From: Nostoc sp. B(2019)
GTDB lineage: Bacteria > Cyanobacteriota > Cyanobacteriia > Cyanobacteriales > Nostocaceae
NCBI RefSeq assembly: GCF_010091925.1
Contig: NZ_WVID01000011.1
Coordinates: forward strand, 62,001 to 126,000
Reading direction: 5' to 3'
DNA: 64,000 bases
Shown: piece after piece, positions 49,554-64,000 of the stretch
How positions within the stretch are numbered: the first letter of the stretch is position 1
How the letters are laid out: each line of letters starts with the position of its first letter
The notes under the pieces: model-generated
What the model saw: the letters and a program-made list of their open reading frames with translations, nothing else
Database searches by the model: none
Told to the model about the DNA's origin: nothing
Program-made: the position numbers and the translations under genes

Positions 49554-50111
49554 TTAGACAGGGGTTCCTGAAAAACTCAACCAAATTAAATACGAAATGG
49601 TTAAACCAATGATAATTAGCGCCACCCAGATAAAGCGATTATCTCTGGTATTGACCTGACTAAGATCAATGAATTCTGGCTCAGCACGCTTTTGAGGCTG
49701 AGAAGATTTGGAAGGTTTGCCAGCTGCACGGATTTTGAGGTCATTGTCAGAGAGTGTGCCTAAATCAGGAATTTCGGTCATCCACTCGCTAGGTCTTACC
49801 AACTTCGGTGCTTTTAAGATGTAAAGCAACCGCCGCGCTTGTTTACTAGTTTCTGAATAAGGATGGCGTTTGAGTCTTTCGCAAAGGGCGATCGCATCAT
49901 CTGTACGTCCGGCTGCTTCATAAGCTGTCACCAGCCAAATTTCTACTTCACCCCCAAGGCGAGAATTGCGAGCCAATAGGGCACTGGCTTTTTCCAAATT
50001 TTCCACGGCTTCGCGGTATTGCCCACTTTCAAAGGCAACTCTACCAGTCTGGTAGCGAGTTTTGGCAATTTCTAAACTTTCTGCACTCACGTTTTGCACA
50101 CAAATCAGCAC
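49554..50111 (-). CDS. TPR-containing membrane protein of unknown function
   Basis: The 185-residue frame has TPR-like helices (AKTRYQTGRVAFESGQYREAVENLEKASALLARNSRLGGEVEIWLVTAYEAAGRTDDAIALCERLKRH) followed by a linker and one C-terminal membrane helix (FIWVALIIIGLTISYLIWLSF). The start is uncertain: no ATG is available, and GTG at 50111 or at 50090 is possible (the latter begins VSAESLEIAK). It precedes the DUF3153 lipoprotein gene and they may share a transcript. Function unknown. Confidence 0.75.
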   Translation of the reverse strand: MLICVQNVSAESLEIAKTRYQTGRVAFESGQYREAVENLEKASALLARNSRLGGEVEIWLVTAYEAAGRTDDAIALCERLKRHPYSETSKQARRLLYILKAPKLVRPSEWMTEIPDLGTLSDNDLKIRAAGKPSKSSQPQKRAEPEFIDLSQVNTRDNRFIWVALIIIGLTISYLIWLSFSGTPV

Positions 50112-50271
50112 TGCTTTAATTTTGCCAATGCCAGCAATCTTTTTGGAATCTTCTCAGAAGCCGGCAATCTTAACGTTGATAAACTTTTAAAATTTTAACC
50201 AAGTAGTCGCAGCTATTTTCTAAGTCTTTGGTGTTAATTATTCCAATTTATCAAATGCAGGTGAACAAAAT

Positions 50272-50706
50272 ATGCTGAAAATCAAGCATTCGCAACTTAA
50301 TTTGTTGGGAGCTGGCATAACTTTGGCAATGATCAGCACTATAATCGCCCCAGCTTTTGCCCAGCCTGTGATCGTGATTGATGGCGCTTCTGGAATCAGC
50401 CGTAGCTGCGGAGCAGCTTGTCGTCAGACATCGCCTGCTGTTGGTTCATTTATTTATGGTAGTCCGATTCCCACTCCTATGCCTGTAGATCCAGCAACGG
50501 GGCTAATGCCTAGACGCATTAATCACCCCAATTTCTACCCCCATTTAAGGCAGAATGTGGACAATTCCACGCTGATTAATCCAACTTTGATTAATCCGAC
50601 AATTCGAGACTCAACGCTAGTTAATCCAGTGATTATAAATAATTCCTGGCGTCGGACACCATTTAATCGGGGGCGATCGCGCGTTATCATTACCTATCCG
50701 CGGTAG
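50272..50706 (+). CDS. Secreted protein with Asn/Thr/Pro repeats
   Basis: The 144-residue product has a signal peptide (LLGAGITLAMISTIIAPAFAQP, cleavage after AFA). The mature part has one pair of cysteines (SCGAACRQ), then a short repeat run NSTLINPTLINPTIRDSTLVNPVIINNS and a basic tail (NRGRSRVIITYPR). I recognise no family. It is monocistronic and divergent from the TPR gene. Confidence 0.65.
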   Translation: MLKIKHSQLNLLGAGITLAMISTIIAPAFAQPVIVIDGASGISRSCGAACRQTSPAVGSFIYGSPIPTPMPVDPATGLMPRRINHPNFYPHLRQNVDNSTLINPTLINPTIRDSTLVNPVIINNSWRRTPFNRGRSRVIITYPR

Positions 50707-50991
50707 GAGGGACTGGGGAGCTGACATCTGTAGGTATTTTACAGCTAGGAAGAGTTGGAATAGTAAAAGCCATTAACAGGGGTTTGAGGGAATGAACTCT
50801 AGCAATGAATTTGATACTATGCACGACCACTGTGGATGGTACTCATTTTTCAGCATTTGAGTTACCTATCTCACTTAACTTCTATGCTTTATTTTCCGAG
50901 CGCTTCTAATGACTACTCACTCTTGTGCAACAAACCTACACCTGTCAGGCTCCCCCGCTTCCCTACCCTCTGCCTCTTGACTCTGGCAAAA

Positions 50992-51756
50992 TCACCAATC
51001 TACTGGCAAACCCAACTGGTCTAAAGTATCCCCGTCTTGCAAAAGTGACTGAATGTTGCCGTCTATTTGAATGCGACCAGCAGATAGTACTAAAGCACGC
51101 TGAGTCACTCTGCCTAACCAATTTAGGTCATGGGAGGCAATTAACATCACCTGCACAGGCAACTTTAACAATACTTGCGCCAGGTGACGCCGCCATGATG
51201 GATCAAGACCGTTGGTCGGCTCATCCAAAATTAGAATTGTCGGTTCTAGGGATAAAATCGCAGCTAAAGCAGCAAGGCGTCTTTGTCCACCAGAGAGTTC
51301 GTGGGCGGAACGGTTGGCGTAGGCTTCTAAACCGAAATCAGCTAATAACTGCCGGGCGCGATCAATTGCCACGGCTGGTGGTACGCCATAGTTGCGTGGC
51401 CCAAAGGTTACATCTTCTAAGATGGTTGGCATAAATAGTTGGTCGTTGGCATCTTGGAAACTAAAGCCAATTTGACGACGCACTTGAGGCAGAGTTGTAG
51501 GTTCTACTGGGATGCCATTAATCCAAATTTTGCCAGTTCGTGGTTGTTTTAAACCGATCAGGTTTTCCAGCAAGGTGCTTTTTCCAGAACCAGTAGCTCC
51601 CATTAATGCGACGCGATCGCCTCTATTCAAGGTAAAAGAAATTTCTTGTAATACTGGTTCTTGCTGGGAATAGGCATATCCCAAGTTTTGAACTTCGACC
51701 ACAGCATGGTGGGAGTTACCGATTGGCGTTTGGGGATTAGATGTCAAAGATTTCAA
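50992..51756 (-). CDS. cbiO: ECF transporter ATPase (CbiO-like), first cluster
   Basis: The 254-residue product is an ABC ATPase: GATGSGKSTLLENLIGL is Walker A, LSGGQRRLAALAAIL the signature, and ILILDEPTNGLD Walker B. VTFGPRNYG is typical of CbiO/NikO. It is third in the order cbiM-cbiQ-cbiO, 28 bp after cbiQ. No ATG lies near its start; TTG at 51756 is used here, and the exact start is uncertain. It powers uptake of nickel or cobalt with its partners. Confidence 0.92.
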   Translation of the reverse strand: MKSLTSNPQTPIGNSHHAVVEVQNLGYAYSQQEPVLQEISFTLNRGDRVALMGATGSGKSTLLENLIGLKQPRTGKIWINGIPVEPTTLPQVRRQIGFSFQDANDQLFMPTILEDVTFGPRNYGVPPAVAIDRARQLLADFGLEAYANRSAHELSGGQRRLAALAAILSLEPTILILDEPTNGLDPSWRRHLAQVLLKLPVQVMLIASHDLNWLGRVTQRALVLSAGRIQIDGNIQSLLQDGDTLDQLGLPVDW

Positions 51757-51784
51757 GATTCACAACTCAAAATTCACAACTGAG

Positions 51785-52438
51785 CTAAATTCTGTAAGAA
51801 GTTAAGGTCAAACAAGCAGCGATCGTCCAGGCTACTAGCAATATAAGACGCTCTTTTGGTCTGAAGCTGGAATCTATGGGCAGTTGTCCATTGTAACCAC
51901 GAGTTACCATTGCCGCGTAGACTCGCTCTGCTCTATCTAGAGTACGGAGATACAAGGCTCCAATCATGGCAGCACTGGCGTAACGCAGCCATCCCGCAGT
52001 TCCATTCAAACCGCGTAATTGAGCGCTGCGCTGCATTCGCGTTACTTCTGAGAGCAGAATTTCCATATATTGCCCAGTTAATAGCAAGTTTTCCTTTAAA
52101 GGTGCTGGTACTGGTAAGCTTTTGAGAGCGATGCCGAAACTGTGCGGTGGTAAGGTTAGCAAAAAACTATTCATGGTGATTAGACAAACAAGGGAACGTA
52201 CCAGCAAAAAACTGGCTCGCTCCCATCCCAAGGGTAACGCCAGTAATGACAGGAAAATCAATTCTGTACCGAGTAATCCGCCCATGCGGCGAATTGGTAC
52301 GCGTAATAATGCTACCCATGAAAGAGCGATCGCCCCATATACGCACAAGCTAGACCAAGCATGATACTTTAACAAAGCTGCCCCCACCACAATCACTAGA
52401 GATAGTTGCAACCTTAACGGCAAAGAAAGTTTAAGCAT
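51785..52438 (-). CDS. cbiQ: ECF transporter transmembrane subunit (CbiQ-like), first cluster
   Basis: The 217-residue product is a membrane protein with about four to five helices and the coupling motif AQLRGLNG and ERVYAAMVTRGYNGQLP, which contains the conserved Ala-Arg-Gly patches that contact the ATPase. It overlaps the cbiM end by 8 bp, showing tight translational coupling. CbiQ is the T component of ECF transporters. Confidence 0.93.
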   Translation of the reverse strand: MLKLSLPLRLQLSLVIVVGAALLKYHAWSSLCVYGAIALSWVALLRVPIRRMGGLLGTELIFLSLLALPLGWERASFLLVRSLVCLITMNSFLLTLPPHSFGIALKSLPVPAPLKENLLLTGQYMEILLSEVTRMQRSAQLRGLNGTAGWLRYASAAMIGALYLRTLDRAERVYAAMVTRGYNGQLPIDSSFRPKERLILLVAWTIAACLTLTSYRI

Positions 52439-53354
52439 TATTCGGTTTCACAACCTTGGCAATTCCAAAGGCGACAGCAAAGCAAACCGCAGCTCCCACA
52501 AGTCCAGCAATACTAGTGCCAATAGGCCCCAAACCCTCAATACCATAGTCAGCTAATGGTGTCGGCACAGTTACCCGCACTTGCTCAGCTAAGTCGATGA
52601 AGCCTAAATTCTCCGCAACTCTCTCCAAACCATCGGGCCATGCTGAGGCAAACAGTGACAGCACACCTGCAATCAGAAAAATGCTGACAATTGGCACTGA
52701 CCATCCGCGAAACTCTTGCTGTTCCCCTGGTAACAAATCTGGTCGTGCTGTGGATAGGTAAGTTAGCACACCACCAGTAATCAACCCTTCGCCAATGCCA
52801 ATTAGAATATGCACACCAGTCATGGCTGGTAAAACTATGGCTACGGGTGCAGTTCCAGATAGAACTAACTCAATGGCACAAGCTAAAGCCGCTGCCACTA
52901 CACTCACACCAGCTGCTATGCCAGCAGCCAAGGGTAAGCGCCCTTTAGAACCCCCAAACAGCCGTTGTAAAGTTTGGGTTAATCCCCAGCCAACCCAAAC
53001 ACCAATTACTGCCATGTTTAAAATATTCGCCCCTAAAGCTGTAATACCACCGTCGGCAAACAGCACAGCTTGAATAATTAAAACCGTGGCAATGCACAAC
53101 GTCCCCGCCCAAGGGCTACCTAAGACGATCGCGGCTAAAGTTCCTCCTAATAAATGACCACTAGTACCCCCTGCTACAGGAAAATTGATCATCTGGGCGG
53201 CAAAAATAAAGGCTGTGGTTAGACCCAGTATGGGAGCACGACGGACACCAAAGGCCTGTTGCGATCGCCCAAAAGAAATGAAAAGTGCTGCCGCACTCAA
53301 CAAACCAGTAGCCGCTGCCACTGGTGGAGAAACAAACCCATCAGGTATATGCAT
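52431..53354 (-). CDS. cbiM: Ni/Co ECF substrate-binding subunit, CbiM fused to a PDGLE domain
   Basis: The 307-residue product starts MHIPDGFVSPPVAAATG; the N-terminal Met-His binds the metal in this family. A CbiM/NikM core of about six helices follows (GGTSGHLLGGTLAAIVLGSPWAGTLCIATVLIIQAVLFADGGITALGANILNMAVIG). The C-terminal 90 residues are a PDGLE (CbiN-like) domain with ASAWPDGLERVAENLGF. M and N parts are thus fused, as in NikMN-type proteins. Nickel is the more likely substrate for this fused form, but I cannot prove it. Confidence 0.92.
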   Translation of the reverse strand: MHIPDGFVSPPVAAATGLLSAAALFISFGRSQQAFGVRRAPILGLTTAFIFAAQMINFPVAGGTSGHLLGGTLAAIVLGSPWAGTLCIATVLIIQAVLFADGGITALGANILNMAVIGVWVGWGLTQTLQRLFGGSKGRLPLAAGIAAGVSVVAAALACAIELVLSGTAPVAIVLPAMTGVHILIGIGEGLITGGVLTYLSTARPDLLPGEQQEFRGWSVPIVSIFLIAGVLSLFASAWPDGLERVAENLGFIDLAEQVRVTVPTPLADYGIEGLGPIGTSIAGLVGAAVCFAVAFGIAKVVKPNNA

Positions 53355-53829
53355 AATTCGTCACGTATTTAATATGTCTATTTAGGCAAAATAATACCAA
53401 TTCTCTGTAAACTTGCACTTAATGATTACTCTTCTATCTTGGCGTACTTGGCGTCCTTCTCTGCGAGACGCTGCGCGTTGGCGGAAGCCTCTCGTAGAGA
53501 AGGCGGTTCGTTAAATAAATATTAAGTGCATCCTCATAGCAAATTGGTCTAAGTAATATAACTACGGTATCAAATTAATAACAAACAAGATTTTCCCTCC
53601 TTTTGCAATGCCCTACTGGGGGATTTCTATAGTGTTACTTAAGATAGATAGACAATAAAATCTGCGTCAAATAAGATACTTGTCTTTTTTAAAATAAATT
53701 TTTATTCATCATATTTTTTGATTGAGCATTAAGCGCTAGAAAATTCAAAAAATAGAAAAAATTGATATTTTACTAATTACTTTAAAATTTGCCTACACTT
53801 AATTAAATTGAGTATTTCAGACTTTCGAC
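53355..53829. other. Spacer between two transporter operons
   Basis: This 475-bp spacer holds the 117-bp inverted-repeat element (53414-53530) and an AT-rich tail. I looked for a cobalamin riboswitch (GCCACTG box with the long conserved core) and a NikR-like GTATGA/TCATAC pair and saw neither. The spacer must contain the promoter of the first cluster. Confidence 0.45.
53414..53530. mobile_element. MITE-like element with perfect 10-bp inverted ends
   Basis: TGCACTTAAT (53414-53423) and ATTAAGTGCA (53521-53530) are perfect inverted copies 117 bp apart end to end. Inside lie GGCGTACTTGGCGTCC, TTCTCTGCGAGACGC and CTCGTAGAGAAG, also palindromic. No coding capacity and no transposase nearby. Elements of this look are common in Nostoc genomes. 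Confidence 0.6.
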
Positions 53830-54660
53830 TCAAAAGTAACGGAACAGACTTAATATTCTCTGCCGCAACCGTTCTAAAACTGGCCCTTCTTCAGCTACTC
53901 CTTCAGCAAATAACATCTCATATATCAACGGTACTCCTAGCTGTAAATCTTCAAGAACACCACGTTGAGTAAAAACATCCTGCGGTTTCCCCTCAATCAC
54001 AAGTTGTCCTCGATCCATAACCAAAACCCAGTCTGCCCAGCGATAAACTAAATCAAGGTCATGAGTTGCCATTAATATTGTTGTGCCAGCTGCATGAATC
54101 TTTTTCAAGGTTGCCATTAAGTTACGAGTATGTAACCTATCTAAATACGCCGTTGGTTCATCTAGTAATAGCAGTTGCGGTCTTAGCACCATCACATCAG
54201 CTATAGAGACTCGCTTTTTTTGTCCTAAGCTGAGATGATGTACAGGTCTTTCTGCTAGTTCAGTCAGTCCAAATTCAACTAAGGCTTGCTCAACTCGCTG
54301 CTTAATTTCTCCTGTAGGCAATCCTAAATTACACAAGCCATAAGAAATATCTTCTTCAACAGTAGAGGCTACTAATTGTTGCTCTGGATCTTGAAAAACT
54401 AGCCCGACTTGTTGACGTAATTTCATCAAAGATTGACGGTCGTATTGTAGAGGCTTATCTTGCCATCTCACACTACCTTTATGTGGTTTATATAGACCAT
54501 TAGCTAATAAAAAAAGTGTGGTTTTACCACAACCATTTTGACCGATTAATGCACATCTTTTATTAGCAGGAATTTTCAGAGTTAAACCATTCAACGCTGA
54601 TTGCTTTGCACCGGGATAAGTGTAATGTACCTGCTCAAATGCGAGTAAAGATTGCTGCAT
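53830..54660 (-). CDS. cbiO: ECF transporter ATPase (CbiO), second cluster
   Basis: The 276-residue product has GQNGCGKTTLFLLANGL (Walker A), LSLGQKKRVSIADVMV (signature), and LLLLDEPTAYLD (Walker B). YTYPGAKQSALNGLTLKIP at the N-terminus is typical of CbiO. It ends the operon cbiM-cbiN-cbiQ-cbiO and overlaps cbiQ by 26 bp. It hydrolyses ATP to drive cobalt or nickel uptake. Confidence 0.94.
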   Translation of the reverse strand: MQQSLLAFEQVHYTYPGAKQSALNGLTLKIPANKRCALIGQNGCGKTTLFLLANGLYKPHKGSVRWQDKPLQYDRQSLMKLRQQVGLVFQDPEQQLVASTVEEDISYGLCNLGLPTGEIKQRVEQALVEFGLTELAERPVHHLSLGQKKRVSIADVMVLRPQLLLLDEPTAYLDRLHTRNLMATLKKIHAAGTTILMATHDLDLVYRWADWVLVMDRGQLVIEGKPQDVFTQRGVLEDLQLGVPLIYEMLFAEGVAEEGPVLERLRQRILSLFRYF

Positions 54661-55444
54661 TATACCAATCCACTGCTATTAATACTGCACATCCGATAAT
54701 TGCTTCTATTGCATACCGCTTGGATAAATGATAGCGATGAGGATGCCAAACCTTAAATTCTCCATTAAAGCCTCGTGATGCCAAACTCAAGGAGACTTGA
54801 CGGTAGTTTTCTAGAGTGCGCTTGAGTAATTGACTAATCAACAAAGCTAAACTTTTCATCGCAATATCAAAAGTGCGGTAGCCACCACGAGCTTGTTGAG
54901 CAGTCCACAACTCTGCGGCTGTATTTAATAGAACGAAAATAAAACGGTACATCAGTAATAACAGGTCTGTTAAAAGTATAGGTAAACCGACGCGACGTAA
55001 AATTTGTAAAAGTTCGGTAAAGGGGATAGTTAGTATGATGAAGTATAAGCAAGAAAGAGAAGCGATCGCTCGTGTTAAAATTGTCAATCCCTGTTCAATT
55101 CCGTGAACGCTGATATATACATAATAAGAACCTACAGTCAGCCCAATTACTGAGTCATGTTGTACTAAATGCAGATGAGCAATATCTATGCCATTGATAA
55201 TTAAAGCTGGTAAACTTGTTAACCAGAAAAGAGTAGCAATGTAGACTAATTTTAGATAAGTTTTAGCAGGAATTCCTGCATAGATGACTGTCCAAGTACT
55301 AATCCAGATTGCAATCAAAATTTGAGCCAGAGGATGAGTAAAGGCAGTGATGATTAGCAGAGCGATCGCAAATAGCAATTTCTGCTCAGGCGCTAACCAC
55401 CGCAACCGATTAGTATAAGCTAGCGTATCTATTTGCAGAGTCAT
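54635..55444 (-). CDS. cbiQ: ECF transporter transmembrane subunit (CbiQ), second cluster
   Basis: The 269-residue protein is a CbiQ: several hydrophobic helices (LLFAIALLIITAFTHPLAQILIAIWISTWTVIYAG, ...), then QQARGGYRTFDIAMKSLALLISQLLKRTLENYRQVSLSLASRGFNGEF with the Arg-Gly coupling motifs. It overlaps cbiN by 4 bp and cbiO by 26 bp, so translation is tightly coupled. It is distinct in sequence from the CbiQ of the first cluster. Confidence 0.93.
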   Translation of the reverse strand: MTLQIDTLAYTNRLRWLAPEQKLLFAIALLIITAFTHPLAQILIAIWISTWTVIYAGIPAKTYLKLVYIATLFWLTSLPALIINGIDIAHLHLVQHDSVIGLTVGSYYVYISVHGIEQGLTILTRAIASLSCLYFIILTIPFTELLQILRRVGLPILLTDLLLLMYRFIFVLLNTAAELWTAQQARGGYRTFDIAMKSLALLISQLLKRTLENYRQVSLSLASRGFNGEFKVWHPHRYHLSKRYAIEAIIGCAVLIAVDWYNAAIFTRI

Positions 55445-55743
55445 TCCTTCTTCCTTTGCTGCTGGGAACGCCCCTTGTATAATCCAATCACATAACCAAT
55501 AACTCCAGCACCTAAAGCAGCTTGAGAGGTAAATAATAAACTTTCCACTTCACCACTAGGTGGTTCAAACAGTGGCTTAAACCAGGGTTGATATCCGGGT
55601 TGTACTTCACTAATTGCTTTTTCAGCTTCGCCATCCGAACCAGTAAATTCCGCCCCACGCACAAATATTAAGGGCACGACTGCTAAAGTTATCACTGCCA
55701 ATATCAATAGCCAGTTACTCAATCCCTTTTTAGACTGATTCAT
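55441..55743 (-). CDS. cbiN: CbiN-type small subunit, second cluster
   Basis: The 100-residue product has an N-terminal membrane helix ([17 protein letters not shown]), a periplasmic loop with [50 protein letters not shown], and a second helix. The [12 protein letters not shown] stretch is the CbiN signature. CbiN helps load cobalt onto CbiM. It overlaps cbiM by 14 bp and cbiQ by 4 bp. Confidence 0.93.
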
Positions 55744-56515
55744 TGTGTTGAGGTTCCCGTTTGATTAATTTCAAAAGTTCCAGTTCTTGAGGAGTGTAGG
55801 ATTGTAGCCAGTTCCACACCAGCACAGTCAACAACCCTTCACTAATTGCTAGAGGGACTTGGGTAATTGCAAAAATCCCAGCAAATTTGATGAATGAGGC
55901 AATAAACCCACCCACGGGCGAGGGGAAAGCCAAGGCGAGTTGCACCGAAGTAATGAGGTAAGTAAGTAAATCTGCTAAAGCGGCTGCTAAAAATATGGCG
56001 ATTTTCTGCTTACCAGTTAGTCTCATCATCAGATGATATATCCAGTAAGCGGCAAATGGCCCAGCGATCGCCATCGAAAAAGCATTTGCCCCTAATGTTG
56101 TCAAACCACCATGCGCTAGAAGCAACGCTTGAAACAGCAGAACTAAACTACCTAGCACCGACATCGCTAAAGGGCCAAATAGCACTGCGCCTAATCCTGT
56201 GCCTGTGGGATGAGAGGAACTACCTGTGACTGAAGGCAGTTTTAACGCCGACAACACAAAAGTAAAAGCTCCCGCCAAAGCCAAGAGTAATTTTAGTTCT
56301 GGGTTAGCTTGGGTGATGCGAGTTAGCGATCGCAATCCTAAAACAAAAAATGGTAACGCCACTACCCACCAAAAAAGCGCCCAACTTCCCGGTAAATAGC
56401 CTTCCATAATATGCATAGCATAGGCTGGAGCAGATGCTCCAACGATCAAATAAAAGCTTAGCAGCCCGATCAGAATTAGCGATACGCTTTTTGACTTGAG
56501 AACAATTCTTGACAC
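55730..56515 (-). CDS. cbiM: Cobalt ECF substrate-binding subunit CbiM, second cluster
   Basis: The 261-residue product has a signal peptide ([24 protein letters not shown]) just before [22 protein letters not shown]. Cleavage would expose the N-terminal Met-His used for metal binding, which is the classical CbiM arrangement. The start is GTG at 56515. A six-helix core follows with [17 protein letters not shown] and [23 protein letters not shown]. With separate cbiN, this cluster looks like the cobalt type. It is divergent from the multicopper oxidase gene. Confidence 0.94.
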
Positions 56516-56808
56516 GCTTTATACCTTGCAGATGCATTTCAACGACTTAGTTTAAATCGGCGGACGCCCTGACAAACAATTCAAAATTAAAAATTAAAAA
56601 TTCAGACATATCCAAACTGCTCTCACTCCCAATACCTTTCGGTTAAGGGGGAAAGAGAAAAGGGGCTGGGGGATGAGGGTTGATACTTTTGAAACATTTT
56701 CTGATGCCATCTCTATGCAAACAAAATGCATCACAGCTTACCAATAGTGTCTTGCTTTCGTCCAGATCCGAGGTTGTCATACTCCTTAAGTAGCGGGTTT
56801 GAAGTATT

Positions 56809-56823
56809 TGAGAATTATTGACA
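56809..56823 (+). promoter_or_regulatory. Putative Fur operator upstream of multicopper oxidase
   Basis: TGAGAATTATTGACA matches the 7-1-7 Fur consensus TGATAATNATTATCA at 11 of 14 fixed positions. A wider inverted repeat GAATTATTG-A-CAATAGTTC overlaps it. It covers the -35 box of the promoter listed next, an ideal site for repression by Fe-loaded FurA. Consensus match only. Confidence 0.5.
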
Positions 56824-56846
56824 ATAGTTCTGGCTCCTTATAATAT
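56818..56846 (+). promoter_or_regulatory. Promoter of the multicopper oxidase gene
   Basis: TTGACA (56818-56823) is a perfect -35. A TATAAT follows at 56839-56844 (15-bp spacing), or TAATAT at 56841-56846 with 17-bp spacing. The ATG lies about 60 bp further on at 56906. Strong match to a sigma70-type promoter. Confidence 0.6.
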
Positions 56847-56905
56847 ACACAGAAGTAATTGCAAATATTTTGCAACTTTTTTTGCGCTAAGCGTAATTGA
56901 ATGTT

Positions 56906-57934
56906 ATGCCCAATAACTTCGCTCTGGGTAAGGAAAAACTTTGGAGCCGCCGTCAACTAATGAAGCTGGGCTTAGCGGGCACTGGTATGATTGGTGCAGC
57001 AGCACTGTGGCAAGTGCTAAGTAATTCACAAACTAAGTCAATAGTCAAAGTGCCACCAATGGAAATGAGCACATCAGAAGGCGTTGCTAAACCCATGACG
57101 ATGCTCAGAAATTTTGATTATGGGACACTCAAACAAGAAAATGGGCGCACCATCCGAGAATTTGAATTAACTGCTGGTACTTCGATAATTAAACTCAATA
57201 GCGCTGTATCCTATAATATCTGGGATTTAAACGGTCGCATACCAGGGCCAACACTACGGGCAAAACAAGGCGATCGCGTGCGAATATTGTTTCTTAATCG
57301 GGCGGGACATTCTCACTCTTTACATTTCCACGGCGTTCATCCAGCTGAAATGGACGGTATTCGCCCAGTCAGCAACAACAACGCCACAATTTATGAATTT
57401 GATGCTGAACCCTACGGCGTTCACTTGTACCACTGCCATATTGAACCAGTCACTCGTCATATTGCCAAGGGGCTGTACGGAATGTTTATCATCGATCCAC
57501 CCACTCCCCGTCCCCCGGCTGATGAGATAGTACTAGTCATGGCTGGTTATGACGTGAATGACGATAGCCACAATGATTATTACGCCTTCAACGGTCTGCC
57601 TCATTACTACATGGATCATCCCGTTCGGATTTATCAAGATCAGTTGATTCGGCTATATGTCCTCAATATTATTGAATATGATCCAGCAGTAACGTTTCAC
57701 CTGCACGCCAACTTCTTCGATGTCTATCGCTATGGCATGAGCATGACTGCTAGCGAGAAAACTGATGTAATTACGATGGGTATAGCTGAGAGGCACATCT
57801 TAGAATTTGCTTTCCGCTATCCGGGTAAGTATATGTTTCATCCTCATCAAGATGCGATCGCTGAAAACGGTTGCATGGGTCAATTTGAAGTAGTTGCTAA
57901 CAACGACTCTAAAAATCCTTTGAAAAATTCTTGA
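56906..57934 (+). CDS. Tat-exported two-domain multicopper oxidase (probable ferroxidase)
   Basis: The product is 342 residues from the ATG at 56906 (TTG at 56897 less likely). RRQLMKLGLAGTGMIGAAALW is a twin-arginine signal. Four HxH pairs of the trinuclear copper centre are present: H140/H142, H176/H178, H265/H267 and H312/H314. Type 1 copper ligands occur only in domain 1 (C177, H185, M193); the domain 2 HPH motif lacks a cysteine. That is a two-domain oxidase with the blue copper in domain 1, a length well below three-domain laccases. Next to an FTR1 permease gene it most probably oxidises Fe(II). Laccase or Mn oxidase activity is possible. Confidence 0.88.
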   Translation: MPNNFALGKEKLWSRRQLMKLGLAGTGMIGAAALWQVLSNSQTKSIVKVPPMEMSTSEGVAKPMTMLRNFDYGTLKQENGRTIREFELTAGTSIIKLNSAVSYNIWDLNGRIPGPTLRAKQGDRVRILFLNRAGHSHSLHFHGVHPAEMDGIRPVSNNNATIYEFDAEPYGVHLYHCHIEPVTRHIAKGLYGMFIIDPPTPRPPADEIVLVMAGYDVNDDSHNDYYAFNGLPHYYMDHPVRIYQDQLIRLYVLNIIEYDPAVTFHLHANFFDVYRYGMSMTASEKTDVITMGIAERHILEFAFRYPGKYMFHPHQDAIAENGCMGQFEVVANNDSKNPLKNS

Positions 57935-58067
57935 ACTAACTTTTAGTAGTGCTGAGTAACCTTAGCATGGCAGGGTATAGGGTTGATTAGTTTGCAGCTA
58001 ACAACTCATAACGCTGGCTTTGTAAATTCAAAAATTATTAAATCATAACAATTTTTTCTCAGCTAGT

Positions 58068-58082
58068 TGATAAAAAGTGTCA
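58068..58082 (+). promoter_or_regulatory. Second putative Fur operator
   Basis: TGATAAAAAGTGTCA matches the 7-1-7 Fur consensus at 11 of 14 positions. It lies 104 bp upstream of the lipoprotein ATG in the 252-bp spacer after the oxidase. I could not assign -35/-10 boxes beside it with confidence. Confidence 0.35.
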
Positions 58083-58186
58083 TTATATGCAACAGTAAAA
58101 TCTATGACACAGGGTTAAACCTAACTGCTGTTAGTAGTTTGAGATGTTTCAATTACTACTTATTAATTAAGTATCTGGGAGTAAAA

Positions 58187-59224
58187 ATGATAAAATTTCG
58201 CTATATCTGTTTAACTGTTGCAACTGCGGCAATAGTGAGCCTCAGCGCTTGTAACAGTACGCCTACAGCAGAAAATCCATCTGCACCAGCCGCTAACTCC
58301 AACCCCCAGGCTAAAGAGGCAGTAAGTCAGAATAATCACAGCGGTCATGGTGGCAAAGCGATTAACATTAATACTGCTATTTTGTCAGAGTTAGATAAGT
58401 TTGAAGCCAAGTTAGGTATCCCAGCTTTATCGAACAAAATTCAGGCGAATCGTCCCTACGCGAATCCAGAAGATTTAGTTACAAAAAAAGTCGTTACTCA
58501 AGAGCAATTCGACCAAATAAAAGACCAGGTTACTATTCAAGAAGTAGTACTTACAGGTGAGGCGAAAGATGTTGACTACATGACCAAATTGGGATTAATG
58601 AAAGGGCATCTTTTTGTAGCACAAGAACTGCTAGATCAGAATCAGCCAAAACAAGCAGAACCCCATATTGGGCATCCAGTTGAAGAGATTTATGTTGATG
58701 TAGAAGATCAACTAAATGAGCGCAAAGTCAAAGAATTTAAAACAACTTTGGTAAGTTTGCAAGATTTAGTAAAATCCAAGCCCAAGGATGCCAAAGTAAA
58801 AACTGATTTTACCTCTTCAATGCAAGCAGTAGATTCTGCGATCGCAGCTTTACCAGCAGATCAACGCTCGAAACCGGGATTTGTGCTACAGACAATTAAC
58901 GGATTGTTAGATGCAGCCAACTCAGAATATGGCGCAGCGATCGCAGATGGCAAAGTAGCCGCACCAATTGAGTATCAAGACTCGCGTGGCTTTGTCGTCT
59001 ATGCTGATGAATTATACAAAGGGATTTCTAGCCAAGTAGCTCAACAAAATCCCGAAGCACACAAAGCGATCGAGGTCAGTTTGGCTGAATTAATAAAAGT
59101 TTGGCCCTCTGCCATCCCACCCGCTCAAGCAGTCAAGACTCCTAATGATGTTACCAAACTAGTGAAAACCATTGAGCAAAACTCTCAAAAAGTAATCGAC
59201 TCTACTACCCAAGCCCAACAATAG
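58187..59224 (+). CDS. Lipoprotein with helix-hairpin-helix and EfeO/imelysin-like parts
   Basis: The product is 345 residues from the ATG at 58187, supported by GGGAG upstream and by the signal peptide that follows; the longer frame from 58067 has no sense as an N-terminus. VSLSAC (C22) is a lipobox. A His-rich patch (NNHSGHGG, 49-56) precedes a ComEA-like helix-hairpin-helix (ININTAILSELDKFEAKLGIPALSNKIQANRPYANPEDLV, 59-98). The rest is helical with EPHIGHPVEEIY (HxxE at 163-166), recalling EfeO/imelysin metal sites. It sits between a ferroxidase-like enzyme and an iron permease gene, so periplasmic iron delivery is inferred. Confidence 0.75.
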   Translation: MIKFRYICLTVATAAIVSLSACNSTPTAENPSAPAANSNPQAKEAVSQNNHSGHGGKAININTAILSELDKFEAKLGIPALSNKIQANRPYANPEDLVTKKVVTQEQFDQIKDQVTIQEVVLTGEAKDVDYMTKLGLMKGHLFVAQELLDQNQPKQAEPHIGHPVEEIYVDVEDQLNERKVKEFKTTLVSLQDLVKSKPKDAKVKTDFTSSMQAVDSAIAALPADQRSKPGFVLQTINGLLDAANSEYGAAIADGKVAAPIEYQDSRGFVVYADELYKGISSQVAQQNPEAHKAIEVSLAELIKVWPSAIPPAQAVKTPNDVTKLVKTIEQNSQKVIDSTTQAQQ

Positions 59225-59310
59225 TAGCCCAACTTAATGGGAAGCTCAGAATAAGAAGTTTAAAATGAGTGATAAGTGAGGAAATAATTAGGAGTTAAAA
59301 GTGAGAATAT

Positions 59311-59335
59311 CGCCTAGATTTTTAACACCTAGGCG
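59311..59335. other. Hairpin in the spacer upstream of the ferritin-like gene
   Basis: CGCCTAG and CTAGGCG make a 7-bp stem around an 11-base loop, inside a wider imperfect inverted repeat (TTAGGAGTTAAAAG and CCTAACTCTTAACTT, about 59288-59360). Without a T-run it is not a clear terminator. Confidence 0.4.
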
Positions 59336-59402
59336 GAGTATAACACCTAACTCTTAACTTAATTGCTCATGACGCTCCATTCGTAAATTGAATTAACAAC
59401 CA

Positions 59403-59837
59403 ATGCAAGAGCTTGACCAGAAAAAAACCATTGACCTGCTGAACGCGATTATGGAATTTGAACTAGCGGGAGTAGTGCGATATACACATTATTCTCTGAT
59501 GGTGACTGGTCCCAACCGCATTCCAATTGTAGGTTTCTTTAAAGCGCAGGCGAGTGAATCTTTACTTCATGCCCAACAAGTAGGAGAAATTCTTACAGGT
59601 TTAGATGGGCATCCCTCACTGAAAATCGCCCAAATGGAAGAGACTTATAAGCACACAGTCAAAGATATCTTGGCAGAAAGCTTATCTCATGAAAAGAAAG
59701 CATTGGATCTGTATAAAAGCCTGCTTGAAACTGTCACCAATGCCAGCATTTATCTTGAAGAATTCGCGCGGGGCATGATTGGACAAGAAGAGATGCATAA
59801 TCTCGAATTGAAAAAGATGTTACGCGATTTTGGCTAA
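59403..59837 (+). CDS. Ferritin-like (bacterioferritin-type) protein
   Basis: The 144-residue product is a four-helix bundle of the ferritin-like family. Metal ligands by position are the glutamate of IMEFELAGVVRYTHY, ESLLHAQQ (E and H, spaced four apart), LAESLSHEKKALDLY, and GQEEMHNLEL (the ExxH of the last helix). A recurring cyanobacterial form has the same pattern. It could store iron or detoxify peroxide with iron. It is in line with the oxidase, lipoprotein and permease genes. Confidence 0.82.
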   Translation: MQELDQKKTIDLLNAIMEFELAGVVRYTHYSLMVTGPNRIPIVGFFKAQASESLLHAQQVGEILTGLDGHPSLKIAQMEETYKHTVKDILAESLSHEKKALDLYKSLLETVTNASIYLEEFARGMIGQEEMHNLELKKMLRDFG

Positions 59838-59852
59838 TAGCTAAATAGTCAA

Positions 59853-60027
59853 GGGGAGCCAGTCACGTGCGAAGAGAAGTTGGAGCGGAGGCTTCCTCCG
59901 CTCCAAACTTCGGGAGGTTCCCGCCGTTGAGTGAACTGGCGTTCAAGGGTCAAGAGTCAAATATAGATTGACTTTGAACTCTTGACTTTGAACTCTTGAC
60001 TTTGGACTCTTGACTTTGGACTTTGGA
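59853..60027. repeat. MITE-like repeat plus short tandem repeats before ftr1
   Basis: The element at 59853-59944 starts GGGGAGCCAGTCACGTGC and ends GTGAACTGGCGTTC. It is the inverted form of the element at 13664-13712, with an added TTGGAGCGGAGG-CTTC-CTCCGCTCCAA hairpin. Tandem GACTTTGAACTCTTGACTTT-type repeats (about 59970-60026) run right up to the ftr1 start, so this gene has a repeat-made leader. Confidence 0.7.
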
Positions 60028-60029
60028 CA

Positions 60030-60998
60030 ATGAATTTTAGTACAGCCTTACCTACTTTTGTAATTACACTCCGAGAAGGAGTAGAAGCTGCCCTTGTTGT
60101 TGGCATTGTGCTAGCTTTGCTGAAAAAAGCCAAACAATCCCGATTCAATTCTTGGGTATATGCTGGTGTCGGCGTTGGCATTATTGTTAGTGCATTTATC
60201 GGTGTGCTATTTGGTTGGGTAACTCAAGCTTTAGGCAAAGCTTATCCGCAATACGCGGGAGTGATTGAGCCAGCACTAGAAGGTGTATTTAGTGTGTTGG
60301 CAATCATAATGCTCAGCTGGATGCTAATCTGGATGACCAAACAAGCCAGATTCATGAAAGCTACTGTTGAAGGATCTGTTACCAACGCCTTGGCACAAAA
60401 CGCTAACGCTGGATGGGGTATTTTTAGTTTAATTTTTGTTGCCGTTCTACGTGAAGGTTTTGAAACTGTTCTGTTTATTGCTGGTAGTTTTCAGCAGGGA
60501 TTAATGCCTACTATTGGCGCTCTTAGCGGTCTTATAGTAGCAGTAGCAATAGGTGTGCTTTTATTTAAATGGGGTATTAAAATTAATATTCGCTTGTTTT
60601 TTCAAGCAATGGGCGTTTTATTAGTGTTGATTGTCGCTGGTTTAGTAGTGACAGCGCTGCAACGATTTGATGAAGCTGTTGCTAGCGTTGCTCTCAGCAG
60701 TCGCGCTTCAGAAAACCTTTGTTTTTACTACGAACGCTTTACCAGAATTCACTCTTGCATTCTAGGCCCAATGGTTTGGAATACTTCCAAAATCTTGCCT
60801 GACGAACAGTTTCCTGGCATTATTTTCAAAGCTTTGTTTGGCTATAGGGAGAATCTCTATATTGTGCAAGCAGTGGGATATGTAGTATTTTTATTCACCG
60901 TCGGCGGACTTTATTTCCGCAGCCTTATTCCTGCTTCCCCCAAAGGTAGAAAGAATATTTCTGTTGCTAGAAAAACGATTGGTTCTGCAAAAGATTAA
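60030..60998 (+). CDS. FTR1-family high-affinity iron permease
   Basis: The 322-residue product has about seven membrane helices and both REGxE iron-binding motifs: LREGVEAALVVGIVLALL (R15-E16-G17-V18-E19) and VLREGFETVLFIAGSF (R141-E142-G143-F144-E145). FTR1/EfeU family members move Fe(III) made by a partner ferroxidase, or Fe(II) oxidised in place. The multicopper oxidase and lipoprotein genes upstream supply such partners. The ATG at 60030 follows the repeat tract directly, and I see no strong ribosome site. Confidence 0.92.
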   Translation: MNFSTALPTFVITLREGVEAALVVGIVLALLKKAKQSRFNSWVYAGVGVGIIVSAFIGVLFGWVTQALGKAYPQYAGVIEPALEGVFSVLAIIMLSWMLIWMTKQARFMKATVEGSVTNALAQNANAGWGIFSLIFVAVLREGFETVLFIAGSFQQGLMPTIGALSGLIVAVAIGVLLFKWGIKINIRLFFQAMGVLLVLIVAGLVVTALQRFDEAVASVALSSRASENLCFYYERFTRIHSCILGPMVWNTSKILPDEQFPGIIFKALFGYRENLYIVQAVGYVVFLFTVGGLYFRSLIPASPKGRKNISVARKTIGSAKD

Positions 60999-61015
60999 GG
61001 AATTTTCAATTAAGA

Positions 61016-61939
61016 TTATACCTTTGACAAAGCTTGTTTAAGCTGCTGACAAGCCTTTTCGATTGCATCTATACTACCTGGATTTACCAAACCGAAATAA
61101 TCAAACACATAGACTCGGTTGTTTTTAGTCGCTTGCAGTTGTTGCCAAAAAGCTTCTTTTTTTAAGGAATCCAAAAGCGCTGCTTCTGAGTTTCCTTGTG
61201 GAGGATTCACTAAAATTATTACCTCTGGATTTGCTTCGAGAACTTTCTCAGCCGAAAGCGTTACATATCCACTAATAGGGCTTTTTCCTTGTAATTCTGC
61301 TGCTAGATTTTTTACTTGAAATTTTGCAAGTAAATCCCCTGCCCAACTGTTTTTATTCGGCGCTAGAATTGGTTGACGGCTAACCAGCACTAAAGCAGAA
61401 GTCTGAGTTGGTTTTTCTGGTAAAAAATTTTTATAACGATTTAATAAAGGTTGAGGATTAGCATCAATTAACTGAGCCAGTCTTTTGGTAAGTTGTTCTA
61501 GAGATTCCCAGCTGTTCACCTTGGTGAGAAAGGTCGGAATTCCTAACTGTTTGAGTTTTTGAATTGGTACGTTAGAAAAACCTTCAGCACCAATAACTAA
61601 ATCTGGTTTCAGCGCTACAATTTTTTCTAAATTTGGAGGGCTTTGACCTTCACTAACGCGAGGAATATCTTTAAATTGTGGGTCATTATTAAATAATCTG
61701 CTGCCAGTGATTCCTACAATTTTGGTTTGATCAAGTTGAGAAATAATATCAGCCGATAGTGAGGAAAGAGCAACAACTCTTTTTGCCGAGCCTTTTGGTA
61801 ATTGTTCAGAGTTCGTGTTAGTCGTTTCAGTAATATTTGCCACTTTTGCTTGTGGCTGTTGAGTAGTTGCAGTAGTGCAAGCAGCTAAAACTATGCTCAA
61901 CAAAATCGCTAAAGTTGATAGAATCCAACGACGATACAT
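61016..61939 (-). CDS. ABC substrate-binding lipoprotein, siderophore/cobalamin type
   Basis: The 307-residue product has a lipobox (SIVLAACTT) and the two-lobed type III binding-protein pattern: RVVALSSLSADIISQLDQTKIVGITGSR, then VALKPDLVIGAEGF, and KLAQLIDANPQPLLNRYKNF as the connecting helix. This is the BtuF/FhuD-type family for cobalamin, iron-siderophores or haem. No permease or ATPase genes are next to it in this window. It converges on ftr1 with a 17-bp gap. Its place beside the iron and cobalt genes suggests metal or corrinoid uptake. Confidence 0.82.
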   Translation of the reverse strand: MYRRWILSTLAILLSIVLAACTTATTQQPQAKVANITETTNTNSEQLPKGSAKRVVALSSLSADIISQLDQTKIVGITGSRLFNNDPQFKDIPRVSEGQSPPNLEKIVALKPDLVIGAEGFSNVPIQKLKQLGIPTFLTKVNSWESLEQLTKRLAQLIDANPQPLLNRYKNFLPEKPTQTSALVLVSRQPILAPNKNSWAGDLLAKFQVKNLAAELQGKSPISGYVTLSAEKVLEANPEVIILVNPPQGNSEAALLDSLKKEAFWQQLQATKNNRVYVFDYFGLVNPGSIDAIEKACQQLKQALSKV

Positions 61940-61975
61940 AATTTAATTAAACCTTAAGGTAATGCCTCAAATGCT

Positions 61976-62626
61976 TTAATCCAGCCTGTGGCTATTGTCA
62001 AACGCTAAGTCCTCTGGTGTATTACAGTTAAACAACATTTCTGGTTCTGGTAAGGGCAAAACTTCTACAGGATTTTGCTCAAGCCATTGCTGAAACGATC
62101 GCCCCCCTTGGTTGATAAACTCTAAGAGTTGTGGCAAACAGCGACGGCGATAAAAACCACACAGAGGTTCCCAGCCTTTAGGATGATGAGCCAAAGCTGC
62201 GATCGCTTCATCCCCTACCTTATCAAGTCTAGTTGCCCAATCTTGCAAAACTTCAACCCGCAACTTCGGCAAGTCGCAAGCTAACAGTATCACCCAATCT
62301 GTTTTTACTTGCGCCAGTCCTTGGGCAAAACCGACTAATGGCCCATGAGTTTGAGGAGAGGAAGAGATGTTCTGTATTCCCAACTCTTCATCTGCTGAGG
62401 GTAAAGCCACTTCTTGGATAAATTGGCAACTAGAACCAAGTAAGTCTTGATAGCGTTCTGGCCAAGGAGTGACTACATAAACAGTATTGGCACAGGTTTG
62501 AGCAATGCCATAAACCATTTGTAACAAAGGCACGCCTTGAATAGGAATCAGGGCTTTATCCTGACCCATGCGAGAACTCTTACCACCTGCTAACACAATA
62601 GCGGTTAACTTACTGGATTCGTCCAT
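61976..62626 (-). CDS. mobA: Molybdenum cofactor guanylyltransferase
   Basis: MobA links GMP to molybdopterin to make the bis-MGD cofactor. The 216-residue product starts LTAIVLAGGKSSRMGQDKALIPIQGVPLL, the nucleotidyltransferase signature, and has VILLACDLPKLR for metal binding and EPLCGFYRRRCLPQLLEFI. FNCNTPEDL ends the domain as usual. It is 24 bp after the YyaL-like gene on the same strand, so they may be cotranscribed. Confidence 0.9.
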   Translation of the reverse strand: MDESSKLTAIVLAGGKSSRMGQDKALIPIQGVPLLQMVYGIAQTCANTVYVVTPWPERYQDLLGSSCQFIQEVALPSADEELGIQNISSSPQTHGPLVGFAQGLAQVKTDWVILLACDLPKLRVEVLQDWATRLDKVGDEAIAALAHHPKGWEPLCGFYRRRCLPQLLEFINQGGRSFQQWLEQNPVEVLPLPEPEMLFNCNTPEDLAFDNSHRLD

Positions 62627-62650
62627 CAGTCCCCCTTATCTTCCGTCTTG

Positions 62651-64000
62651 TTACGCCCTAGTCTGACTTTGCTGTACTTGCTGCCACAACTGCTCTACAC
62701 TTTCTGCTGGTGCAAGGCACTGCAAACCTTGGCAAACTAACCCAACGCTCCCCTCTGGTAAATCAGAGATGACGCTGAACACAGCCGTTGGCAGATACGT
62801 AGGGATAAGAGAGTTGATTTGCTCTGTTGTGCTGCGAATCAAGGTAGAGTTACGATACCAATCTAAAGCTGTAAACAAGCTGGGACAAGCTTGGGGAGCA
62901 GAATGCATCACACTCCTAAAAGCTTTTAAGCCTTGCTCAGCTAAATCCAAATAATCTAAATTATCGGTGAGTAAGGCGAGACGGACAAGGTTAGCGATCG
63001 CTACTCCGTTGGCTGATGGTGTAGCATTATCTGCGTAACTCCGCTCACGCACAATTAAATCTTGACTGGAATCTCTTGATGTGTTATTGTAACCACCTAA
63101 TTCGACACTCCAGAGAAACTCATCAAATTCACTTTGGATAGCGATCGCCTTTTCTAACCACAAAGAGTCCTGATGGCTCAATTGTTTTTCATCTGGTGTC
63201 AATGAAACCTGATGTAAATCCAGCAGCGCTTTGATAAACAAAGCGTAGTCTTCAGATTGCGCTAAAACTGATGGTTCACCTTGATAGTTGAGTCGATGAA
63301 AACGCCCATCTACAAACTGATGGTTCAGGATAAAATTTGCTGCCTGCTTTGCTAGTTCTAGGTATAACGGTTGTTTGAATACCCCAGCAGCTCTTGCCAA
63401 CCCGGAAATCATCAAGCTATTCCAAGCGACAATCATCTTTGTATCTGTCACAGAGGGAATACGACCTGGCCAATTGTGAGTTTTTGCCTCTTGATTATTG
63501 CGTGCAGGCGGAAAAGTCTCCAATGAGTCAGGTACAACACCATAACGAGCAGTAAACAGCTTGCTCAGTGCAGTTTCTAGCGTTGCACTTAATTGCCCTT
63601 GATGACGCCTTTGCAAAACATTCTGTCCTTCAAAGTTACCGTTAGGGGTCACTGTAAACTGCTGTTGTAATTCCGTTAGTTCATCACGTGTTAACAGTTG
63701 TTCTAGTTCGCTGTAACTCCAGACGTAAAAGGCTCCTTCCTCTGGTTCCACTGCGGTAGAGTTAATGAAGCTGTCAGCATCTTGAGCCGCATAAAAGTAA
63801 CCTTCAGGCGCAGTCATTTCCCGCTTTAGCCATTGCACAGTCCTAGCTACCGCTCGTTCAAAAGCTGGTTCTTGTATTTCTGCACTCCACAAATTTGCTA
63901 GATACTCGACAATCTGTCCATTGTCATAGAGCATCTTTTCAAAGTGAGGCACAGTCCATGTAGGGTCAACAGTGTAGCGATGAAAGCCACCGCCCAGATG
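62651..64000 (-). CDS. Thioredoxin-domain YyaL/DUF255 protein (partial)
   Basis: The gene enters from the right edge, so its N-terminal thioredoxin-like domain lies outside the window. The visible C-terminal 449 residues begin HLGGGFHRYTVDPTWTVPHFEKMLYDNGQIVEYLANLW, a strong DUF255 (YyaL, spermatogenesis-associated 20-like) signature. They continue through an (alpha/alpha)6-type barrel (FYAAQDADSFINST, KMIVAWNSLMISGLARAAGVF, NATPSANGVAIANLVRLALL). It ends at 62651. The family is widespread but poorly characterised. Confidence 0.9.
   Translation of the reverse strand, partial: HLGGGFHRYTVDPTWTVPHFEKMLYDNGQIVEYLANLWSAEIQEPAFERAVARTVQWLKREMTAPEGYFYAAQDADSFINSTAVEPEEGAFYVWSYSELEQLLTRDELTELQQQFTVTPNGNFEGQNVLQRRHQGQLSATLETALSKLFTARYGVVPDSLETFPPARNNQEAKTHNWPGRIPSVTDTKMIVAWNSLMISGLARAAGVFKQPLYLELAKQAANFILNHQFVDGRFHRLNYQGEPSVLAQSEDYALFIKALLDLHQVSLTPDEKQLSHQDSLWLEKAIAIQSEFDEFLWSVELGGYNNTSRDSSQDLIVRERSYADNATPSANGVAIANLVRLALLTDNLDYLDLAEQGLKAFRSVMHSAPQACPSLFTALDWYRNSTLIRSTTEQINSLIPTYLPTAVFSVISDLPEGSVGLVCQGLQCLAPAESVEQLWQQVQQSQTRA

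Follow-up and report, generated by a model that had tools for sequence, protein, structure and literature searches.

A stretch of 64,000 nucleotides from Nostoc sp. B(2019) (contig NZ_WVID01000011.1, positions 62,001 to 126,000; hereafter the window), part of a 7.43 Mb cyanobacterial assembly, contains four plus-strand genes in a row that encode, in order, a two-domain multicopper oxidase (MCO), a lipoprotein (LIPO), a ferritin-like protein and an FTR1 permease (Table 1). All four match their families in Pfam and PDB sequence searches, confirming the arrangement given in a preliminary description of the same DNA. We favor, with moderate confidence, the reading that MCO and LIPO are a periplasmic, probably iron-repressed ferroxidase pair coupled to the FTR1 permease, resembling Fet3/Ftr1 in its logic. 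The genomic context gives good support for iron uptake by an assembly that includes a copper oxidase. The conserved partner of the oxidase is LIPO, and coupling to FTR1 appears to be derived, with the HhH domain of LIPO as its mark.

The gene order, which was expected to recur in other cyanobacterial genomes, is indeed conserved. One scan with LIPO, from which the best 80 of 169 relatives were kept as loci (nearly all from heterocystous cyanobacteria), recovered FTR1 in all 80, the ferritin-like gene in 77 and MCO in 70, and the end of MCO lies within 501 nucleotides of LIPO in 59 of the 70 loci holding both. Because these loci were fetched by LIPO similarity and come from close relatives, they show conservation and not independence. 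Profile searches for the LIPO C-domain and for MCO, and a search with the Pfam FTR1 model, covered 386 genomes, and the positions of the matches were compared (MCO at E≤1e-60, with weaker matches dropped; FTR1 at E≤1e-10; LIPO minus one weak match in G016, E 8.7e-4). LIPO was found in 69 genomes, MCO in 68 and both in 65. Of 27 genomes outside the window's own family, 24 have the two genes on the same strand and no more than 1.5 kb apart; in the remaining three they are convergent neighbors (two genomes) or on separate contigs (one). Within the family, they are at most 1.5 kb apart in 23 of 38 genomes and at most 7 kb apart in 34. FTR1 occurs in 108 of the 386 genomes, 49 of them without LIPO, and is located within 2 kb of LIPO on the same strand in 37 of 39 genomes of the window's family versus 10 of 30 others. 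Ten genomes with LIPO have no FTR1 at E≤1e-10; two of these (G054, G121) are also without MCO and have a degraded LIPO, and eight carry an apparently intact MCO-LIPO pair. Since 65 genomes hold both proteins, eight of them without detectable FTR1, we consider MCO and LIPO to be the unit and FTR1 an addition. The original proposal that the oxidase works with FTR1 agrees with the gene linkage conserved in close relatives, but MCO itself is tied to LIPO.

Three genomes have MCO only: in G193 it sits at a contig edge, and the oxidases of G296 and G374 are divergent and form a long branch. In the four genomes with LIPO only, the protein is represented by fragments (G051, G121) or by homologs that lack part of the conserved His/Glu set (G118, G054; see below). 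Ten of the 80 fetched loci, all in Nostocales, are without MCO in the fetched stretch; in each of the eight such genomes that were searched, a single MCO lies elsewhere.

The HhH domain is present in LIPO at all 95 loci with FTR1 and at none of the 19 without it. When the 80 loci fetched with full-length LIPO are subtracted from the same data (L113-L152), the counts are 15 of 15 versus 0 of 19. At loci without FTR1, a short, often Gly/Glu-rich linker is seen by eye instead of HhH, and in L121, L125 and L127 the lipobox Cys is, also by eye, missing. All 25 HhH/FTR1 rows of the LIPO tree fall on one side of a branch (94/61), with one change in 94% of bootstrap trees (L128 and short rows were left out of the trees). 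The acquisition of HhH together with FTR1 was therefore probably one evolutionary event, retained since.

We next consider regulation, taking TGATAATNATTATCA as the Fur-box consensus. The predicted -35 element upstream of MCO lies inside the Fur-box-like site at 56809..56823, the best one upstream of MCO. Scores of at least 11 were found upstream of MCO at 59 of 67 Nostocales loci versus 5.1% of 608 other open reading frame (ORF) upstreams, and at 10 of 30 non-Nostocales loci versus 6.1% of 263 other ORF upstreams; upstream starts were approximated by the ends of tblastn hits, and kinship inflates the Nostocales count. LIPO upstreams reach this score in 71 of 94 cases versus about 6% of shuffles, and no enrichment was seen for the ferritin-like gene (3 of 84 upstreams) or FTR1 (1 of 96). 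Enrichment limited to the MCO and LIPO upstreams suggests two controlled start points, one at each of these genes.

Iron-related genes also surround the pair away from FTR1. A FutA-like binding protein, an OprB/SLH porin and FeoA precede the MCO-LIPO pair in L116 and L120, and a 14/14 Fur-box match precedes the porin gene of L116. Nearby genes in L119, L121-L123, L127, L139 and L144 include one for a PiuC-like 2OG oxygenase, with Bfd and two ferritins in addition in L122, L123 and L144. Overall, iron-related markers occur within 5 kb at 12 of 19 loci without FTR1 versus 1 of 95 with it. The Fur-box-like sites and these neighbors fit the iron control suggested in the preliminary description, in which Fur itself remains the presumed regulator.

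The same observations bear on a different and, in our judgment, rather unlikely role, namely protection of the envelope from Fe(II), which MCO would oxidize and LIPO sequester, limiting Fenton chemistry without feeding a permease. The presence of the pair without detectable FTR1 in eight genomes is consistent with such protection, as are the Bfd and ferritin genes adjoining it in L122, L123 and L144 and the ferritin-like gene, which fits storage. However, the Fur-box-like sites suggest expression at low iron, and the binding-protein, FeoA, porin and FTR1 neighbors point to uptake.

The widely shared part of LIPO is its helical C-domain, for which a Pfam search gave no match over cut-off. Lipobox Cys22 is invariant across 38 alignment rows (37 of the 80 fetched loci and the window). 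One alignment behind the conserved motifs of Table 1 leaves out L115 and L128. The full set H141, H160, H163, E167, E262, Y263 and D265 is kept in 112 of 114 aligned LIPO loci; two of the 112 (L025, L034) belong to genomes outside the MCO search. The HxxE motif noted earlier does exist, as H163-P-V-E166, but its E166 varies, being replaced by Asp in four and by Lys in two of the 112 loci. Two longer homologs from genomes without MCO depart from the set: that of G118 has lost H141, H163 and E167 and kept H160, E262, Y263 and D265, and that of G054, 23% identical, has lost all three His, E262 and D265. Because G118 has FTR1, the motif appears to follow MCO rather than FTR1, in a small sample. 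Within the family of G118 (14 genomes), G396 has MCO, a motif-bearing LIPO and a PiuC-like gene in a row, and in G394, which has no MCO, LIPO is in two pieces separated by about 1.9 kb. A small ORF labeled by eye as ExbD-like (L124:6547-6954) precedes the partly motif-less homolog of G118.

LIPO accompanies MCO even when MCO is distant and decays where MCO is gone, a pattern that would also suit copper handling, with LIPO binding copper and either metallating MCO or joining it in Cu(I) oxidation; one homolog even has a sub-threshold CueP match (E 0.013, 15.6 bits versus a cut-off of 27). We nevertheless regard this role as improbable, as the conserved set consists of His and carboxylates, the candidate residues include no invariant Met, and the neighbors listed include iron-related genes and no copper transport gene recognized by eye (no family search was made).

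The label “EfeO-like”, initially given to LIPO, did not hold at the sequence level: compared by hhalign with E. coli EfeO, the LIPO profile reached a probability of 0.4, and with no Pfam match for the C-domain we reject LIPO as an EfeO homolog by sequence. EfeO, EfeM, imelysin and Algp7 entries were present in the fold list of a first LIPO model (pLDDT 68.7). For the better model (pLDDT 96.1), a designed zinc protein and generic helical bundles lead and none of these four is among the 50 entries listed, and we draw no fold relationship. Matches of the LIPO profile to designed repeat proteins were put down to helical composition.

MCO matches Cu-oxidase_3 and Cu-oxidase_2 of Pfam within about 342 residues. 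Its HFH, HCH, HLH and HPH motifs supply the eight trinuclear histidines reported before, which are invariant in alignments of 20 rows (19 MCO loci and the window) and 17 rows. A T1-type blue-copper site (Cys177, in the HCH motif, and His185) is found in domain 1 only, the HPH of domain 2 being without Cys, and the T1 axial position is, by alignment, Leu190; the ligands were assigned by alignment to what we take to be those of nitrite reductase. Leu at this position is a high-potential feature, as in Fet3p. The closest solved chain, 3gdc, an Arthrobacter protein, is likewise a type C oxidase with two domains, copper ligands and the T1 site in domain 1; it was compared by protein alone, and for MCO there is in addition the linkage to LIPO and iron-related genes. 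MCO falls in type C by its two cupredoxin domains, four HxH pairs and a T1 site restricted to the N-terminal domain, following the rule on T1 location given in passages of PMC13151041. Export by the Tat pathway, part of the preliminary description, is predicted from the N-terminal twin-Arg motif. It is very doubtful that MCO acts as a laccase or Mn(II) oxidase with no relation to iron, its linkage to FTR1 in Nostocales being historical: to our knowledge, little has been learned of what type C two-domain oxidases act on, and MCO lies away from LIPO in several genomes, but iron-related neighbors in several families and conserved Fur-box-like sites argue for a link to iron.

Small membrane-protein genes were observed at L049 (8055-9510), L033, L066, L075, L076, L150 and L152, between MCO and LIPO in some of them. 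Their products are M1 (205 aa, with conserved histidines), M2 (157 aa) and a third of 79 aa, with no Pfam match over cut-off. There are 13 loci with a match to M1; L152, a locus without LIPO, still has M1 and M2 beside MCO. A membrane heme or reductase partner would be our guess.

FTR1 matches its Pfam family at 1.4e-56, with NCBIfam TIGR00145 and EfeU matches below their cut-offs, and both of its REGxE motifs are as first described (REGVE at 15, REGFE at 141). Twenty-two sampled cluster FTR1s form one group (82/92) with L190, L191 and L192 (from G019, G174 and G251). In L190 (3017-3148), short adjoining remnants of MCO and LIPO lie beside intact ferritin-like and FTR1 genes; this is a deletion scar. 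A longer loop of cluster FTR1s (CFYYE..HSC) was considered as a docking mark and dropped, because some FTR1s that do not belong to the cluster group have similar loops. The window's own genome has a second, solitary FTR1 (L132:7821-8741), 54% identical, near a groL-like gene. In the ferritin-like protein, alignment to the closest solved ferritin-like chain puts Ser53 at the Glu position of ExxH, with Glu52 adjacent, and the ESLLH sequence is conserved in a 78-row set; because Ser53 replaces the expected Glu, the ferroxidase site may be atypical.

In the ferroxidase pair that we favor, Fe(II) reaching the envelope would be oxidized by the type C MCO, with O2 going to water, and the His, Glu and Asp residues of LIPO would bind iron beside the oxidase and hand on Fe(III). 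In many other cyanobacteria the pair may serve whichever ferric importer is present, FutABC being one candidate. In the lineage of this genome, HhH on LIPO and the adjacent FTR1 would represent a docking change channeling oxidized iron into FTR1, and the ferritin-like protein would buffer iron inside the cell. Fe(II) as the substrate, iron binding, docking and the direction of flow are all what we infer here.

Several observations weigh against this scheme. The association of HhH with FTR1 counts once, because it corresponds to one change on the LIPO tree, with moderate support. The best MCO tree has six changes of the HhH/FTR1 label, at least three of them forced; that it shows no single event is partly because some MCO loci are away from LIPO or at contig ends. 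G019, G174 and G251 have a cluster-type FTR1 and no MCO or intact LIPO, so FTR1 can persist without the pair. The motif-loss comparison comprises two sequences, one keeping four of the seven residues and the other at 23% identity. At seven of the 19 FTR1-less loci, no iron gene of the tested set lies within 5 kb, and L116 and L123, which are among the 12 marker-positive loci, were themselves the source of the marker queries. FutA, PiuC and an iron role of the porin are designations of our own, the Pfam assignments being SBP, 2OG-FeII_Oxy_3/PKHD_C and OprB/SLH. As for the substrate, the closest solved MCO chains are named only multicopper oxidase or nitrite reductase.

Yeast Fet3p/Ftr1p and Chlamydomonas FOX1/FTR1 (the latter route outlined in passages of PMC7247011) likewise combine a REGxE FTR1-family permease with a multicopper oxidase under iron-responsive logic. 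Fet3p has three domains, according to a part of PMC9174327, and MCO two; unlike Fet3p/Ftr1p, the cluster has an extra lipoprotein and an oxidase that also occurs without FTR1. EfeUOB/EfeM systems, too, join an FTR1 permease of EfeU type to extracytoplasmic partners, and the cupredoxin and helical domains of EfeO (excerpt of PMC9174327) are somewhat like MCO plus LIPO; features of EfeO/EfeM, imelysin and FtrABCD were taken from parts of PMC9174327, PMC3143127 and PMC11966278. In contrast to EfeUOB, the window's own genome has no match to M75 (EfeO) at E≤10 and no Dyp_perox_N match for the DyP peroxidase EfeB, while 7 and 3 of 14 control genomes, respectively, do, and LIPO is without a sequence match to E. 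coli EfeO. The suggestion that a copper ferroxidase replaces EfeB is thus compatible with the lack of a DyP protein, with ferroxidase activity presumed, and replacement of EfeO by the lipoprotein is possible in a functional sense, in a genome without an M75 match, but not as homology at the sequence level. FtrABCD of Brucella and Bordetella also couples an FTR1 permease to a copper protein proposed as the ferrous oxidase (excerpt of PMC11966278). It differs in having the single-domain cupredoxin FtrB and other partners, versus a four-copper oxidase and LIPO here; no FtrA, FtrB or FtrD was recognized by eye among ORFs beside FTR1 (no family search was made). Synechocystis cFTR1 (slr0964, listed as FTR1 in a part of PMC11221513), compared by description only, is another cyanobacterial FTR1 in a reduction/re-oxidation route, where iron may be re-oxidized by oxygen and then imported via cFTR1, according to passages of a review (PMC7676907).

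A literature search of titles and abstract openings found no MCO-LIPO or MCO-FTR1 cluster described in cyanobacteria. Cyanobacteria have a high iron demand, and the FTR1 reduction/re-oxidation route has been proposed in them without a named ferroxidase, as far as the excerpts above extend. A conserved, probably Fur-regulated oxidase with a partner of unassigned family is a specific, deletable candidate for this ferroxidase, and the association of HhH with FTR1 suggests a rule, open to testing, by which an oxidation module independent of any permease comes to be coupled to one. More tentatively, and short of an even chance in our estimate, LIPO may represent a new envelope iron-relay family that works with a type C copper ferroxidase and any importer, in which one gain of HhH produced a dedicated FTR1-docked complex, re-inventing Fet3/Ftr1 coupling in bacteria and filling in the re-oxidation step that is missing for FTR1 in this lineage of cyanobacteria.

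Table 1. Features of the oxidase-lipoprotein-permease cluster in the window.
Feature	Position	Strand	Remarks
Fur-box-like site TGAGAATTATTGACA	56809..56823	+	11/14 to consensus TGATAATNATTATCA
Sigma-70-like promoter TTGACA-17-TAATAT	56818..56846	+	Consensus match only; 14 found versus 9.3 expected in region
MCO, two-domain (type C) multicopper oxidase, twin-Arg signal motif	56906..57934	+	3gdc is the closest solved chain (E 2.8e-85)
Second Fur-box-like palindrome TGATAAAAAGTGTCA, upstream of LIPO	58068..58082	+	
LIPO, lipoprotein, 345 residues; signal peptide, lipobox Cys22, HhH domain, helical C-domain	58187..59224	+	
HhH (HHH_3, ComEA/PsbU-like) domain, LIPO residues 58-116	58358..58534	+	Over Pfam cut-off
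Helical C-domain, LIPO residues 121-342	58547..59212	+	Widely shared part; model pLDDT 96.1
Conserved HIGHPVEE motif (H160, H163, E166, E167)	58664..58687	+	
Conserved EYQDSRGF motif (E262, Y263, D265, R267)	58970..58993	+	
Ferritin-like protein, 144 residues	59403..59837	+	Presumed cytosolic
FTR1 permease	60030..60998	+	Two REGxE motifs, seven hydrophobic segments

The likely start of MCO is the ATG at 56906; the ORF opens with TTG at 56897, and 56809 is a promoter/operator position. A riboswitch search of 50000-64000 gave no match at gathering score. The cluster is flanked by minus-strand genes on both sides: cobalt ECF transporter genes (52431-56515, including cbiM at 55730-56515), divergent from MCO, and a gene for a BtuF/IsdE-like periplasmic binding protein (61016-61939), convergent to FTR1. 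CbiM is present in 21 of the 80 fetched loci and the binding protein in 51, some loci ending early. The gap between the ferritin-like gene and FTR1 (59880-60030) contains a 12-pair hairpin and a run of short direct repeats.

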